Shown here: piece by piece, positions 3,804 to 54,906 of the stretch
Position numbering within the stretch: position 1 is the first letter of the stretch
How the letters are laid out: each line of letters opens with the position of its first letter
Virus record (IMG/VR): IMGVR_UViG_3300028025_001987
Location: 1-63,424 of that record
Length of the DNA stretch: 63,424 bases
Strand: one strand, 5' to 3'
Origin: a virus
The notes under the pieces: generated by a model
Seen by the model: the letters and a program-made list of their open reading frames with translations, nothing else
What the model was told of the DNA's origin: nothing
The model's database searches: none
Made by a program: the position numbers and the translations under genes

Positions 3804-3980
3804 ATGGCAAAGTCAACTCCAAATTTACCCGCTTCATCAAGAATGCAAATGCCTTCAGGCGGTGGACCATCAATCAAAGGTGCAATCAAAGTAAAAGCAT
3901 TAGGTATGGTAGGTGGTGTTCCTTCTAAAGGAAAGATTACAGGTGCAGGTAAAGGTGCAACTAAAAAAGCAATGTATTAA
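3804..3980 (+). CDS. Small Gly/Lys-rich protein (58 aa)
   Basis: Starts MAKSTPNLPASS after an A-rich leader and ends GATKKAMY. It is low in complexity, with many Gly, Lys and Pro-Ser residues, and probably disordered. The next gene also begins MAKS, and the leader-start pattern (TTAAAAAAATGGC) is intact, which supports real translation. The function is unknown; a minor virion or nucleoid protein is possible. Confidence 0.6.
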   Translation: MAKSTPNLPASSRMQMPSGGGPSIKGAIKVKALGMVGGVPSKGKITGAGKGATKKAMY

Positions 3981-11100: not shown

Positions 11101-14100
11101 TCTACAGATTGGAATACATTTAATGATAAGCAACCACTTATTACTGCAGGAACAACTTTGCAGTATTATAGAGGAGATAAAACTTTTCAAACATTAAATA
11201 CAACAGTTGTTCCTGAAGGAACAAATCTTTACTATTTAGATAGTAGAGCAAGAGCGGCTATTAGTTTAACAACTACAGGTTCGAGTGGTGCTGCTACATA
11301 TAATAGCACTACAGGTGTATTTAACATTCCTGATTACGGGTCTGCTTTAAGTGGATATGTACCAACGTCAAGGCAGTTAACCATTAATGGTACTGCATAC
11401 GACTTAAGTGCAGATAGAAGTTGGAGTGTGGGTACAGTTACATCAGTAGCTGCATTAACATTAGGAACAACAGGAACTGATTTAAGTTCAAGCGTGGCAA
11501 CAGGAACAACAACTCCTGTAATCACATTGAACGTACCTACAGCGAGTGCTGCTAATCGTGGTGCTTTAAGTGCTGCTGATTGGTCAACATTTAATACTAA
11601 GGTAGGTGGCGTAACAGCAAGTAGTCCATTAGCATCAAGCGGTGGTTCTACTCCAAACATTACAATTCAACAATCAAGTGGTAGTCAGGATGGATATTTA
11701 AGTTCAACTGATTGGACGACTTTTAATAGCAAACAAGTAGCCGGCAACTACATTACCTCATTAACGGGTGAGGCAACGGCTACAGGTCCGGGTGCTGCTG
11801 CAGTTACATTAAACAACGCATCAGTAACAGGAAAGGTTCTTACGGGAGTTAATATTACCGGAGGAACTGTTCAAGCGACTGATACAATGCTTACGGCATT
11901 TGGTAAGTTACAAAATCAAATCAATGGTTTGATTGGTAGTACCATTTATCAAGGCACTTGGAACGCAGCGACTAATACACCTGCTTTAGCGAGTGGTGTT
12001 GGCGTGCAAGGATATTACTACATTGTTTCAGTGGCAGGTACTACAAATCTTGATGGAATTACAGATTGGTTTGTGGGCGATTGGGCAATATTTAATGGAG
12101 GTGTATGGCAGCAGGTAGATAATACTGACGCTGTGGTAAGTGTGAACGGACAGACAGGTGCTGTTAGTTTAACTACTGACAATATTCCTGAAGGTGCGAC
12201 TAACCAATATTACTTAGATAGTAGAGCACGTGCGGCATTGTCATTTACGGCAGGTAGTGGTGCTTACAATAGCACTACAGGTATTATAACTATACCAACC
12301 AATACAAGTCAGCTAACCAATGGTGCTAACTTTATTACATTAGCTTCATTAAGCGGAACGGCTCCTATTGTGTATAGTAATATTACAGGTGCAATAAGCA
12401 TTACACAGTCAGGTACTGCAAGCGATGGATACCTTTCAAGTACTGATTGGAATACGTTTAATAATAAGCAAGCTACAATAACTTTAACAACTACGGGTAC
12501 GAGTGGTGCTGCTACTTTGGTAGGTGCTACTTTAAACATTCCTCAATATCAAAGTGCATTAACTAATCCGGTTACAGGTACAGGAAATGCTAACTATATA
12601 CCTAAATTTACAGGTACAAGTGCAATAGCAAATAGTGTTATATATGATAATAGTGGAAACATATTAATAGGAACCGGAAACATAACATCAGCACATAAAT
12701 TAACTGTTTATTCAGCAACGGCAACAGCACAAATTAGGGCAGCAGGTGCTGCTCCCGCAATTTTATTTACAAATACTGATACCAATACAAATAGCTATTC
12801 AGGTTATGTAGGTATAGCAACGGCAGTAAATAACTTTATGGCAGGCACTGCTGCAGGTGATATGGTGGTTCAAAACTATTCAGGTTATCCAATATTATTT
12901 GGAATTGGGAATATTATAAAGATGCGATTAGAAGCATCAGGACAGCTTGTATTGACCTCAACTATTAGTAATGGTACTTATACATATACACTTCCGGGTG
13001 CAACAGGCACTTTAGCCTTAACAAGTCAAATACCTTCTTTAACAGGTTATGTTCCATATACAGGAGCGACTACAAGTGTTGATTTAGGTGTTTATAATTT
13101 AACTTCTAATTTACAATATAATAAAGGTATAATAGTTAATAAATCAAGTACCACTGCTAATTCATTAAATATTGAAATTGCGGCATCTGCATCAATAAGT
13201 GGGGTTGGATATATTTCATTAACATCAATAGCAACTGATTCTTTAAGTGTATATTTTGGTGGCAGTACAAAAGTAGCTATATTATCAGGTTCTTCATTAA
13301 GTGCAAATAGAACTTACACTTTACCTGATACAAGTGGTACATTGGCTTTAGTTGGAGGTTCAGGCATTGGTACAGTTACATCAGTAGCAGCTTTAACAAT
13401 TGGAACAACAGGCACTGACTTGTCAAGTACAGTTGCTAATAGTACTACAACACCTGTAATTACATTAAATGTACCTACTGCATCGGCAGCTAATCGTGGT
13501 GCCTTAAGTGCCGCAGATTGGACTACGTTTAATAATAAGCAATCAGCTTTAACTAATCCGGTTACAGGGACAGGTACAGCGGGTTATGTTCCTAAATGGA
13601 CAAGTGGCAGTGCAATAGGAAATAGTATTTTACAAGATTCAGGTACAAGGCTTACAATGACAAGTGGGGATGGATTTCAAATATCAACAGGGTCTAGTGA
13701 TACAGTAGGTGCAGGTTCATTTATTGCTTTAACTAATGTTGGTGCAACAAATTGGCAATTACAACAAATGAATGCCGCTTATGGATTAGATTGGTGGACT
13801 TTAGCAAGTGGGGGTGGTTGGGAAAGAAGAATGGTTTTAACAAATCCCGGTAATTTAATTGTAGGAACTACTAATACATCAACAGGACATAGATTAACTG
13901 TTTATTCAGCAACTGAAACTGCACAATTTAGAGCAGCAGGTGCTGCCCCTGCAATTGCATTTACAAATACTGATACCAATACAAATAGCTATGTAGGTTA
14001 TTTGGGTATGGCAACAGCAGTAAATAATTTTATTACAGGAGCAGCAGCAGGTGACTTTGTTTTACATAACTATTCAGGTGGACCAATTTTATTTGGTATT

Positions 14101-19308: not shown

Positions 19309-21532
19309 TTTATGCCGTATAGTGGATAACCATATACCGGCTGCCGTCATCTCTAATAAAAATAGGGTGAGGTCGTGGTTGTATGGTTATAATCCGCAGT
19401 ATAATGTTATTGTTATCTCAAAGACCGGACAGATAGGACAGATAGTAGAGATAGAGGGATTATTTATTGCTCTTCCTGCTACACCCGAAAAGTGTCTTCA
19501 AAGACACTCCACTAAAGCTGAACAATATTGGGAGCGTCAAGAACTGCCACGAGAGTTGTTTAAAATACAATCCATATTTCAATGGAATGAAAAGCCAAAA
19601 GAATTTAAAGACCGTTGGGTTGATTATATTGAACAGGAGTTCGACTATAGAGACCAAGGTTTTTGGTTTATGAATAATGGGGTCAAGACCTACATAACAG
19701 GCTCACATTATATGTACTTGCAGTGGTCAAGCATTGACATAGGGTACCCTGATTTTCGTGAAGCGAATAGAGTCTATTGGATATTTTGGGAGGCTTGTCG
19801 TGCTGACCCAAGGTCTTTTGGTATGATATATCTAAAGATTAGACGTTCGGGATTCTCATTTATGTCATCTTCGGAGTGTATTAACATAGGTACGCTCGCA
19901 CGTGACGCACGTATAGGTATCCTGTCCAAGACGGGTGCTGATGCTAAAAAGATGTTTACCGACAAGGTAGTTCCTATCAATAGTCGTTTGCCTTTCTTTT
20001 TTAAGCCCGTTATGGATGGTATGGACAAGCCAAAGACTGAGTTGGCATTTAGAGTTCCTGCATCTAAGATTACCAAGAAGAATATGTATGAATCTAACGA
20101 CAATGAGATTGACGGATTAGATACATCAATAGATTGGAAGAATACGGAAGACAACTCATATGATGGAGAAAAACTATTGTTCTTGGCTCACGATGAGTCT
20201 GCCAAGTGGACTAAACCTGTAAACATCAAAGAGAATTGGCGTGTAACTAAAACCTGTTTGCGTTTAGGTAGTAAAATTATTGGTAAGTGTATGATGGGTT
20301 CAACGTCTAATGCTTTAAGCAAAGGAGGTCAGAACTACAAAGATATCTACGAGGATTCAAATGTAAAAGTTCGTAATGCTAACGGACAGACTAAGAGTGG
20401 CTTATATGCCCTATTTGTGCCGATGGAATGGAATATGGAAGGATTCATTGATAGATATGGTCATCCTGTATTTCGCAAGCCTGATGAGCCTATAATGGGC
20501 GTAGATGGCAATTGGATTATAAACGGAGCCATTGACTATTGGGAAGCAGAGGTTGAATCTTTAAAAAGTGATGCTGACGCACTAAACGAATTTTATCGTC
20601 AGTTTCCACGTACAGAGTCTCACGCTTTCAGAGATGAGAGCAAGCAGGCTTTGTTTAATTTAACAAAACTATATCAGCAGATTGATTATAATGACTCAAT
20701 GATTAAGGAGCATTACCTTACTCGTGGGTCTTTTTCGTGGAAAGATGGCATTAAGGATACTGAGGTTATTTGGACACCTGATACTCGTGGTAGGTTTAAT
20801 ATTGCTTGGGCACCACCTAAGCATATGCAGAATAATATTCACATACGCAATGGGATTAAATATCCCGGCAATGACCATCTTGGCTCATTTGGGTGTGACT
20901 CGTATGATATCTCAGCCGTGGTTGGAGGACGTGGGTCTAATGGTGCACTACACGGTATGACTAAGTTTCATATGGATGACGCTCCTGTCAATCAATTCTT
21001 TTTGGAGTACATTGCTCGTCCACAAACAGCAGAAATATTTTTTGAAGAGGTACTAATGGCGTGTATATTCTACGGAATGCCTATCTTAGTGGAGAATAAC
21101 AAGCCAAGACTTTTGTATCATATTAAAAATAGAGGGTACAGAGGTTTTTCTGTTAATAGACCTGATAAGCAAATGGCTAAGTTAACAAAGACTGAGAAAG
21201 AGTTAGGAGGTATTCCAAACTCATCAGAAGATGTAAAGCAAGCACACGCTTCTGCAATTGAGTCTTACATCGAGAAGTTTGTAGGATTAGATTTGGAAGC
21301 AAAATATAGAGACCCTGAGGAGATGGGCACGATGCCATTTACAAGAACTCTTGAAGATTGGGCAAGGTTTGATATAAACGATAGAACAAAATTTGATGCC
21401 TCTATTAGTTCAGGTTTATGTATAATGGCTAACCAAAAGCATTTATATATGCCTGAGAAAAAAGAATCAAATTTAATTATTAACTTTGCTAAGTATAAAA
21501 ACGATGGAACAACAAGTCAATTAATTAGATGA
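19283..21532 (+). CDS. terL: Terminase large subunit
   Basis: The packaging motor that cuts concatemeric DNA and pumps it into the prohead. The ATPase half has a deviant Walker A (KIRRSGFSFMSS, about residues 184-195) as in crAss-like terminases, and Walker B with catalytic Glu in LLFLAHDESAKW. The C-terminal RNase H-like nuclease shows acidic motif GCDSYDISAV. About 749 aa, normal for this group. The start given is TTG at 19283, which overlaps the previous gene; GTG at 19322 is possible and no good ATG lies nearby. One copy of the 16-bp palindrome falls inside the gene at 19492-19507. The portal gene overlaps its end by 4 bp. Confidence 0.92.
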   Translation: MQKEGQSNSLCRIVDNHIPAAVISNKNRVRSWLYGYNPQYNVIVISKTGQIGQIVEIEGLFIALPATPEKCLQRHSTKAEQYWERQELPRELFKIQSIFQWNEKPKEFKDRWVDYIEQEFDYRDQGFWFMNNGVKTYITGSHYMYLQWSSIDIGYPDFREANRVYWIFWEACRADPRSFGMIYLKIRRSGFSFMSSSECINIGTLARDARIGILSKTGADAKKMFTDKVVPINSRLPFFFKPVMDGMDKPKTELAFRVPASKITKKNMYESNDNEIDGLDTSIDWKNTEDNSYDGEKLLFLAHDESAKWTKPVNIKENWRVTKTCLRLGSKIIGKCMMGSTSNALSKGGQNYKDIYEDSNVKVRNANGQTKSGLYALFVPMEWNMEGFIDRYGHPVFRKPDEPIMGVDGNWIINGAIDYWEAEVESLKSDADALNEFYRQFPRTESHAFRDESKQALFNLTKLYQQIDYNDSMIKEHYLTRGSFSWKDGIKDTEVIWTPDTRGRFNIAWAPPKHMQNNIHIRNGIKYPGNDHLGSFGCDSYDISAVVGGRGSNGALHGMTKFHMDDAPVNQFFLEYIARPQTAEIFFEEVLMACIFYGMPILVENNKPRLLYHIKNRGYRGFSVNRPDKQMAKLTKTEKELGGIPNSSEDVKQAHASAIESYIEKFVGLDLEAKYRDPEEMGTMPFTRTLEDWARFDINDRTKFDASISSGLCIMANQKHLYMPEKKESNLIINFAKYKNDGTTSQLIR
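19492..19507. repeat. 16-bp palindrome, copy 1 (inside terL)
   Basis: GTGTCTTCAAAGACAC, one of ten copies of GTGTCTTYRAAGACAC in the window. This copy is inside a coding sequence, which argues that the motif may have a role at the DNA level as well as in RNA. Confidence 0.85.
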
Positions 21533-53470: not shown

Positions 53471-53785
53471 CTAAAATGGAAGTTCGCCATCTTCATCTTC
53501 TGCAACCTCAGGTTCAGGTGCCTTTTGCTTAGGCGTAGCCTGTTTCTCTGATTGTGGCTTCATACCACTTTGTGCAGTCGGCTCATAGGTATCCAACTCA
53601 ATGTAATAATTGCCACTACGTGCAGTCTTTACATTAAGGTTAATCCATCCGCCCTTCTCGTGCTGTCTGATGAATGCTACTCCATCGTCTGCCTTGATTG
53701 ATAATCGCCCAACTACAAAGTCAGGTGCTTTTTCGTTCCTCTTGAATGAGAATCCGTCTGCAAAGATTTTTTCTTCGTTTGCCAT
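53471..53785 (-). CDS. ssb: Single-stranded DNA-binding protein
   Basis: 104 residues: a beta-rich OB-like body (FVVGRLSIKADDGVAFIRQH, GWINLNVKTARSGNYYIELD) and a disordered, Pro/Glu-rich linker ending in the acidic tip DEDGELPF, the classic SSB tail that recruits partner enzymes. It is followed by the iteron region and primase, with the recombination genes upstream, as expected of a replication SSB. Confidence 0.8.
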   Translation of the reverse strand: MANEEKIFADGFSFKRNEKAPDFVVGRLSIKADDGVAFIRQHEKGGWINLNVKTARSGNYYIELDTYEPTAQSGMKPQSEKQATPKQKAPEPEVAEDEDGELPF

Positions 53786-53861
53786 TTTGTTCTATTTTTT
53801 TTGTTGCCTCAGTCTATTTGTACCAATCAAAGACCTCTGAGGCTAAGCCTATAATTAGTTG

Positions 53862-53947
53862 AGGTCGGGGCAGGAATTGAACCTGCAGTAACCAATTAAC
53901 GGAATCAAGCCACTAACGTAGGTGCCACAATTTTCCGTCACCCGACC
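53862..53947 (-). tRNA. tRNA-like element 1 (non-canonical middle)
   Basis: On the - strand a perfect 7-bp acceptor stem GGTCGGG/CCCGACC is followed by T-8, and a perfect T arm GCAGG-TTCAATT-CCTGC. The 86-nt middle does not fold into normal D and anticodon arms: I find instead a 6-bp stem ACGGAA/TTCCGT enclosing 28 nt. CCA is not encoded. It may be a diverged tRNA, or a tRNA-like processing site for RNase P and RNase Z. Confidence 0.5.
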
Positions 53948-53965
53948 ATTTGCTTGTCTTTCCAA

Positions 53966-54015
53966 GCTGTCTGAATGAGGGTATTTTGTACGTAATTCAG
54001 GAACCTCTCATTATC
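53966..54015 (-). ncRNA. Candidate H-type pseudoknot between tRNA-like elements
   Basis: On the - strand, ATGAGAGG pairs with CCCTCAT (7 bp, one bulge) and CTGAA pairs with TTCAG (5 bp), in the interleaved order S1-S2-S1'-S2', with S1' and S2' directly adjacent. This is the layout of an H-type pseudoknot. It occupies the gap between the two tRNA-like elements. Seen by eye; no energy calculation. Confidence 0.4.
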
Positions 54016-54026
54016 TACCTTAGTTG

Positions 54027-54119
54027 TCGTCAGAGTGGGAATCGAACCCACACCATCTCTTACGAGTGCTCTAATTCCTCTAAGACTCCATTTAATTAGG
54101 AGCATTAAGCTATCTGACT
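54027..54119 (-). tRNA. tRNA-like element 2 (enlarged D loop, shrunken anticodon arm)
   Basis: On the - strand it has acceptor pairs GTCAGA/TCTGAC, T-8 A-9, a D-stem-like GCTT...AGAGC, and a canonical T arm GTGGG-TTCGATT-CCCAC. But the D loop carries about 28 extra nt and the anticodon arm is reduced to CTC-GTAA-GAG, with no 7-nt loop, so no anticodon can be assigned. It begins 4 nt after the palindrome hairpin at 54124-54139, the place where ribozymes stand in three other gaps. Confidence 0.5.
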
Positions 54120-54123
54120 GCCT

Positions 54124-54139
54124 GTGTCTTTGAAGACAC
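54124..54139 (-). repeat. 16-bp palindrome, copy 5
   Basis: GTGTCTTTGAAGACAC, 20 nt after the stop of the RecE-like exonuclease gene and 4 nt before the predicted 5' end of tRNA-like element 2. As RNA it folds into a short perfect hairpin. Confidence 0.85.
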
Positions 54140-54159: not shown

Positions 54160-54906
54160 TTATAATAAATATTCGTCAATGTAGTAGTTCACAATATCAT
54201 CTGATGGGTAAGCACTAAAATATTTATCATATATCTGAATTGCTTTGCCAACTTTGATTTCGCCACCTTTTACAAAGTCTTCTGTTGGTCTAAAAATACC
54301 AAGTACTCCGGTGCCTTTGTCAATAACGTAGAACACCAATGGCTTACCAAACAACTCCTGATAAATGTAGCACTGAGAATCGTAATTGTACTGCTTTGCT
54401 GTGTACTTAAACTTATGAATGTCACTCGTAGTCTTAAGGTCAATCACTGCATTGTCAGTAACAATATCAGCCTTCCCTTTCCACATCCTTCCTTGAATCG
54501 TTCCAACTGCCGGAGTCTCATACTCATTACCTGCTTTGTAAATCTCATCATAGAACGCAATGTTCCCATTGATAATACTTACTAAGTTTTGAATCTCGTC
54601 CTGCTCCTTCTTCAACATACAAAAAGGTAGGTTGTTTTCTTCGCAGAATAACTTATACTCTTTGGTAGTACGTGTACTCACATCTACTGCCGGCATACCC
54701 TTCGCTTTCTCAGGCTCCAAGATTAACTGATGAAAGTATCTGCCATCCATAAATGCTTTATTGTCTTCACGTGTCTTACCGAAGTCTTGAGGATTGCTAA
54801 GCAATATGCCTATGTCTGAATTAGATAAATAGTTCTTGCCATACCCATTGTAATACTCGTTGTCATCTCTGAGCAACGTTATAATTTCTGATACTTGATT
54901 TTCCAT
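54160..54906 (-). CDS. RecE/exo VIII-like PD-(D/E)xK exonuclease
   Basis: 248 residues with the layout of exodeoxyribonuclease 8-type phage nucleases: YLSNSDIGILLSNPQDF near the start (the DUF3799-like entry), then RMWKGKADIV and AVIDLKTT giving the D and ExK-type residues, and QYNYDSQCYIYQ with the conserved Q-x-x-x-Y. It would resect double-stranded ends to feed the annealing protein encoded directly upstream. The two genes share one base at the junction. Confidence 0.88.
   Translation of the reverse strand: MENQVSEIITLLRDDNEYYNGYGKNYLSNSDIGILLSNPQDFGKTREDNKAFMDGRYFHQLILEPEKAKGMPAVDVSTRTTKEYKLFCEENNLPFCMLKKEQDEIQNLVSIINGNIAFYDEIYKAGNEYETPAVGTIQGRMWKGKADIVTDNAVIDLKTTSDIHKFKYTAKQYNYDSQCYIYQELFGKPLVFYVIDKGTGVLGIFRPTEDFVKGGEIKVGKAIQIYDKYFSAYPSDDIVNYYIDEYLL

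Follow-up and report, generated by a model that had tools for sequence, protein, structure and literature searches.

In the engineered tRNA scaffold the acceptor stem and the T and D arms are retained, and the anticodon stem-loop serves as the insertion region; the scaffold works in E. coli and its product is recognised by E. coli factors (PMC3753655). Among natural RNAs, the pseudo-tRNA tRNA-Other of Bacillus cereus has no translation function and has been proposed to form part of a regulatory RNA (PMC3399842). Phage tRNAs counter tRNA-cleaving defences, among them retrons (PMC11555353), PARIS (PMC12409363) and Septu (PMC13096335). Here we analyse two tRNA-like elements (TLEs), TLE1 and TLE2, encoded by a phage. 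With a probability of about 0.6, we regard them as belonging to a large family of phage small RNAs that do not decode and in which a tRNA frame carries a variable cargo. The frame, the missing canonical anticodon arm, the structure and covariation of the cargo and its modular exchange are evident at the level of sequence, and a role of the cargo in counter-defence, or in binding host proteins or RNAs, is our guess. A description of the family was not found in the open-access literature searched. By that literature the TLEs are apparently new as a natural family, and their function is a candidate only.

The window, meaning the whole stretch of DNA analysed, is a 63,424-base virus record from a tailed phage, with genes for GroEL, a large terminase, an exonuclease VIII-like protein and a Sak-like annealing protein. 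The phage-encoded GroEL lies at 871-2541 on the plus strand (phrog_5725). The closest annotated relative of the window phage is an uncultured podovirus (Manatee Spring). TLE1 and TLE2 lie on the minus strand, in the gap that separates a RecE-like exonuclease gene from an SSB-like gene, and are co-directional with both (Table 1). A PHROG search with the SSB-like gene gave no match, so its name is taken from its acidic tail and its neighbourhood. Two further RNA elements share the gap. A palindromic hairpin is conserved in many relatives whether a TLE is present or absent, and a pseudoknot that precedes the start of the SSB-like gene by about 20 nt has 14 of its 19 pairs changed on both sides (pair counts, alignment A4), which is strong covariation across 26 phages. 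We presume that this pseudoknot is perhaps an autoregulatory operator, comparable to that of T4 gene 32. In the spacer between the TLEs (54026-53948, minus strand) a AATGAGAGG/CCCTCATT hairpin could form, together with another small hairpin.

Table 1. Features of the TLE locus in the window.
Feature	Position	Strand	Basis
RecE/exonuclease VIII-like gene, upstream of TLEs	54160..54906	-	phrog_412, E 5.8e-26
Palindromic hairpin GTGTCTTCAAAGACAC, just upstream of TLE2, after the exonuclease gene	54124..54139	-	relatives
TLE2, tRNA-like element	54027..54119	-	RF00005, 35.9 bits; same-locus relatives; A2 pair counts
TLE2 D arm, 4-bp stem GCTT/GAGC, 35-nt loop	54068..54110	-	sequence; A2 columns 10-52
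TLE2 D-loop hairpin GCTCC-TAATTAAAT-GGAGT, 5 bp, 9-nt loop	54085..54103	-	covariation
TLE2 anticodon-arm replacement CTC-GTAA-GAG, 10 nt, 3-bp stem, GNRA tetraloop	54057..54066	-	sequence; relatives
TLE2 T arm GTGGG-TTCGATT-CCCAC, normal	54035..54051	-	sequence
TLE1, tRNA-like element	53862..53947	-	RF00005, 30.3 bits; frame finder
TLE1 T arm GCAGG-TTCAATT-CCTGC, normal	53870..53886	-	sequence
H-type pseudoknot, TLE1 to SSB-like gene, not part of a TLE	53806..53858	-	covariation
SSB-like gene, downstream of TLEs	53471..53785	-	acidic tail ...DEDGELPF; 68 relatives in viral_contigs

The preliminary description had placed two tRNA-like elements with intact acceptor and T arms at 53862-54139. Both are real, and the strand, which is the minus strand, was the only part of their placement that had to be corrected. 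ARAGORN reported no tRNA in the window. The Rfam tRNA model (RF00005) scored both elements above its gathering cut-off of 29 bits because of their tRNA frame, and a frame finder returned them as the sole matches on both strands of the 63 kb, compared with one match in 20 shuffled copies of the window (one strand searched). The tmRNA model (RF00023) had no match in the window, and with the tRNA-Sec model (RF01852) TLE1 reached 21.9 bits against a threshold of 47. An anticodon arm with a 5-bp stem, a 7-nt loop, U33 and a purine at position 37 is absent from both TLE1 and TLE2, in agreement with the earlier remark that no 7-nt anticodon loop could be found. The covariance model gave TLE2 an aligned anticodon stem of just 3 bp and a loop of 4 nt.

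The acceptor of TLE2 pairs 54119-54113 with 54034-54028 (AGTCAGA/TCTGACG) in six base pairs plus an A-G mismatch at 1:72, and is followed by A73 at 54027. The enlarged D loop and the 10-nt anticodon arm described earlier for this element are borne out, and the D loop contains a hairpin of its own. In this hairpin two pairs are changed on both sides and one varies between G-C and G-U (four sequences); its loop is conserved except for one base and its stem varies by compensation among the four distinct sequences, including that of the window. The covariation score of the TLE2 alignment was reached by 6 of 500 shuffles, a modest level of support from only four distinct sequences. The same design was found again in four other contigs, which represent three distinct sequences, and at the anticodon position the relatives have a GTAA, GCAA or GAAA tetraloop.

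TLE1 has the acceptor GGTCGGG/CCCGACC, with T at position 73 (53862) followed by C74. Its minimum-energy fold is not a cloverleaf and the fold of its interior is ambiguous, the options being a 3-bp D stem with a long hairpin (-23.9 kcal/mol) and a single helix stacked on the acceptor (-31.0 kcal/mol). A relative sharing the interior was sought and none was found, so there is no comparative guide between the two folds. TLE2 and the family described below retain the acceptor, T and D arms and have an insert at the anticodon position, as in the tRNA scaffold; the fit of TLE1 to this architecture is uncertain.

A search with the exonuclease as query gave 80 loci. At least one TLE is present in 29 of the 76 loci with sufficient sequence, so the element is dispensable. 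Many relatives retain the palindromic hairpin and the pseudoknot in the gap between the exonuclease and SSB-like genes, and since close relatives without a TLE keep these flanking RNA elements, separation of the exonuclease transcript from the SSB transcript does not depend on the TLE. Other relatives have quite different TLEs at the same position. When L008 and L010 are compared at this locus, the flanks are 100% and 98% identical and the interiors 62% identical, which equals the value for shuffled interiors (62%); whole TLE alleles have therefore been replaced. Downstream of the exonuclease gene, L024, L025 and L033 have another conserved, structured-looking RNA (GGGAGGCTAAGGGACCCCACC...GGTAGTCTCCC), and L027 and L026 have still other, different structured-looking RNAs. 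In L007 (3777-3863) and L011 (3846-3932) the TLE is extended by a G(-1):C73 pair, after which comes CCA, an arrangement that resembles the ends of histidine tRNAs.

IMG/VR was scanned with a T-arm/acceptor pattern and with a 5' pattern, each giving at least 120 matches, and at least 283 distinct elements with an NGTCAGR acceptor were collected, the acceptor columns being fixed by this selection. In the acceptor, the D and T arms and the residues of the D/T elbow, the 283 elements agree with real tRNAs. U8 is present in 95%, A14 in 91%, GG in the D loop in 91% and a 3-bp D stem in 90%, and the elbow (U8, A14, G18G19, T loop), at 91-95%, is close to that of other tRNA elements. At the ends, U(-1) occurs in 229, A73 in 255 (a count partly fixed by one of the search patterns) and C74 in 273 of the 283, C74 being found in 228 of 234 other tRNA elements. 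Pair 3:70 of the frame is T3-A70, as it is in TLE1. The elements are largely intergenic, only 3 of 250 overlapping an ATG-initiated ORF of 90 or more amino acids. TLEs also form arrays (eight in L187), and many adjoin ordinary tRNAs. Their neighbouring genes are a mixture of phage genes (terminase, DUF932, HNH and others) with no constant partner. Phage tmRNAs scoring above the Rfam threshold also occur in TLE loci (L134 2393-2755, L234 5938-6409, L250 5724-6218).

A canonical anticodon arm was detected in 13 of the 283 elements (4.6%), where 4.65 were expected with shuffled interiors, as against 189 of 234 (81%) other tRNA elements at the same loci. We therefore expect no codon reading by elements that lack the arm. 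Real decoding tRNAs in which an anticodon arm of unusual shape, or one interrupted by an intron, had been overlooked would explain why ARAGORN names 56 of 244 such elements, often with 2- or 4-letter anticodons, and why a few short elements score well with the tRNA model (for example L216 13031-13101, 66.3 bits). Such a hidden arm was rejected by the positional test against same-locus tRNA elements and shuffles, and in TLE2 and its relatives the GNRA-type tetraloops stand where the expected loop should be; we consider this explanation very improbable. Even less credible is that the elements are decayed tRNA pseudogenes, a view which accounts for the missing anticodon arm and nothing more, and which is opposed by compensatory changes in the cargo and in all three stems of the frame (acceptor, D, T), by intact elbow residues and by copies in the hundreds. 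The earlier suggestion that these are not decoding tRNAs is thus supported: what the family shows throughout is substitution of the anticodon arm by other RNA, and not simple damage to it.

The RNA that takes the place of the anticodon arm, here called the cargo, is highly diverse. Its length at the anticodon position ranges from 13 to 140 nt (median 52; 283 elements), and at E<=1e-4 the interiors of the NGTCAGR elements could be sorted into about 215 unrelated groups, of which 167 are singletons. Folding z-scores of the cargo average -0.67, compared with 0.04 for dinucleotide-shuffled controls (p 8e-14), values that are modest beside those of the bottom halves of real tRNAs (mean -1.3). One example is cargo family C, gathered by its cargo and part of the T arm. 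Acceptors pair in all 20 distinct copies examined, and in 16 copies compensatory pairs are found in all five helices, including both helices of the cargo. None of 500 shuffles, which leave relatedness in, reached the observed covariation, and slid partners gave far lower counts. Cargo family C is carried by an AACAGAG frame (L397) as well as by AGTCAGG, and one D-loop insert, GTGTGCCCTGTT.TTACGGGAAGTACATGG, accompanies one cargo in L024 and another in L390; the acceptor, the cargo at the anticodon position and the D-loop insert are therefore exchanged independently. In a further subfamily the interior GCGTAATGAGG...GGTT is found with varied acceptors (L212 5885-5958, L341 2431-2506, L240 314-387, L030, L064, L186, L239), and some members have an extra domain nested inside it. 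Scans of 36 loci at Rfam gathering thresholds found tRNA and tmRNA only and no known RNA family in the cargo. In a search for antisense pairing, matches of the window cargos to their own genome were no longer than those of shuffled sequences.

These observations bear on the proposal, made in the preliminary description, that the elements may be processing signals. As a complete account this would mean that the frame draws RNase P and 3' nucleases to separate or stabilise mRNA ends and that the interior is filler. The part concerning the frame remains plausible, as U(-1), A73, C74 and the elbow residues are those of ordinary tRNAs in the same phages, and TLE1 and TLE2 lie between two co-directional genes beside a hairpin and a pseudoknot. 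The part concerning the interior fares poorly, for the inserts exceed shuffles in structure, covary, recur as families on different acceptors and are exchanged between near-identical loci; many elements are moreover in arrays beside ordinary tRNAs, and the element is missing from close relatives. A pure processing signal is accordingly unlikely.

An acceptor-independent scan with a D-arm pattern, the D arm being one that we take to resemble that of bacterial tRNA-Leu, gave 65 elements that could be fitted. A canonical anticodon arm was absent from 51 of these (acceptor GTCAGG in 22, a different acceptor in 29), and 13 of the 14 canonical elements had the anticodon TAA or TAG, consistent with leucine. 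The 29 elements with other acceptors led us to reject AGTCAGG as a universal identity or signal. A host tRNA origin of the common frame was likewise rejected, its 25-nt 3' end being found in just 6 stretches among 84,980 species genomes, all of them MAG contigs. Judged by its sequence distribution, the commonest frame is restricted to phages. The phage frame is present in L375, L376 and L378, MAG contigs that bear the labels Neisseriaceae, Helicobacteraceae and Rickettsiaceae and are possibly misbinned phage contigs.

The constant ends of the elements, the replacement of alleles between near-identical flanks and the many unrelated genomic contexts might also be expected of a selfish or recombination element, in which a constant frame propagates itself and exchanges interiors through homologous recombination, or is itself an attachment site, and the phage gains nothing. 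Pairing and the end signals of tRNAs are nevertheless retained by acceptors of many different sequences, so that selection on an RNA is implied, and an associated recombinase was not found. We regard an element of this kind as improbable.

If the TLEs are instead non-decoding RNAs with a cargo, their frame (acceptor, T arm, D arm and D/T elbow) would be recognised by host RNase P, by 3'-end enzymes and possibly by EF-Tu, and excision from a longer transcript as a stable tRNA-like RNA would therefore be expected. A structured cargo would replace the anticodon arm, and sometimes the D loop as well, and would pass between elements as a module. The cargo may then have a host factor as its target in trans, and our first guess at that factor is a protein of defence or of RNA metabolism; the diversity of the cargo and the rapid replacement of alleles make us suspect an arms race with the host. 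More specifically, and tentatively, phages of Bacteroidota and perhaps others may use a natural tRNA scaffold, a single frame matured by host enzymes, to display an open-ended set of recombining cargos that inhibit or bind host proteins such as defence effectors, a proposal to which we give clearly less credence than to the family itself. Another role would be that of a decoy, in which the frame is the active part and engages host effectors targeting the body or the ends of tRNAs, and the interior varies because it has only to escape decoding or cleavage. The preserved elbow, acceptor and N73-C74 suit a decoy, as does the phage context, given that phage tRNAs counter tRNA-cleaving defences; a conserved and covarying cargo structure is not predicted by it, and we rate it slightly below the pure processing signal.

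Two cultured phages carry TLEs. In Bacteroides phage BF1-TP2 (PQ571263.1), which infects B. fragilis BL19, the element is at 3829-3943, within an ORF annotated as hypothetical. Bacteroides phage BS-TP2 (PQ571275.1), which infects B. salyersiae BG8, has an element at 19550-19656 and a second, less clear, at 13732-13812. The hypothetical protein gp8 of BF1-TP2 (PQ571263.1 3787-3951; L511 3452-3616), which covers the TLE, may be a false ORF. Cultured carriers such as these make the expression and processing of TLEs, and the function of their cargo, accessible to experiment. If our reading is correct, phages contain a large class of small RNAs that is unannotated, its members being either overlooked by tRNA finders or given odd anticodons, and oddly called tRNAs in phage genomes deserve rechecking. 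The class would be a natural counterpart of a laboratory tool and would provide new RNA inhibitors directed at bacterial proteins.

Among known systems, decoding tRNAs (RF00005) share with the TLEs the acceptor, D and T arms, the elbow residues, U(-1) and N73-C74, and differ in having the canonical anticodon arm. The tmRNA (RF00023) also has a tRNA-like end and an anticodon arm replaced by other RNA, whereas TLEs score as tRNA and keep the D stem; being mostly 70-150 nt long, against several hundred for tmRNA, they are too short for the tmRNA layout. In tmRNA the G3:U70 pair is the determinant of alanine charging, and the common TLE frame has T-A at 3:70 instead. B. cereus tRNA-Other is similarly tRNA-like and outside translation, but it was described for a single chromosomal element, whereas the TLEs are a phage family with swappable inserts. 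The defence-countering phage tRNAs are phage-borne and tRNA-shaped like the TLEs; they are specific tRNAs that let the phage escape retrons and other defences (PMC11555353), whereas TLEs have no anticodon arm and are non-decoding. Closest in design is the engineered tRNA scaffold (PMC3753655), with the same retained arms and an insert at the anticodon position. That scaffold is man-made, whereas the TLEs are natural, occur in phages, carry hundreds of cargos and sometimes have a second insert in the D loop.
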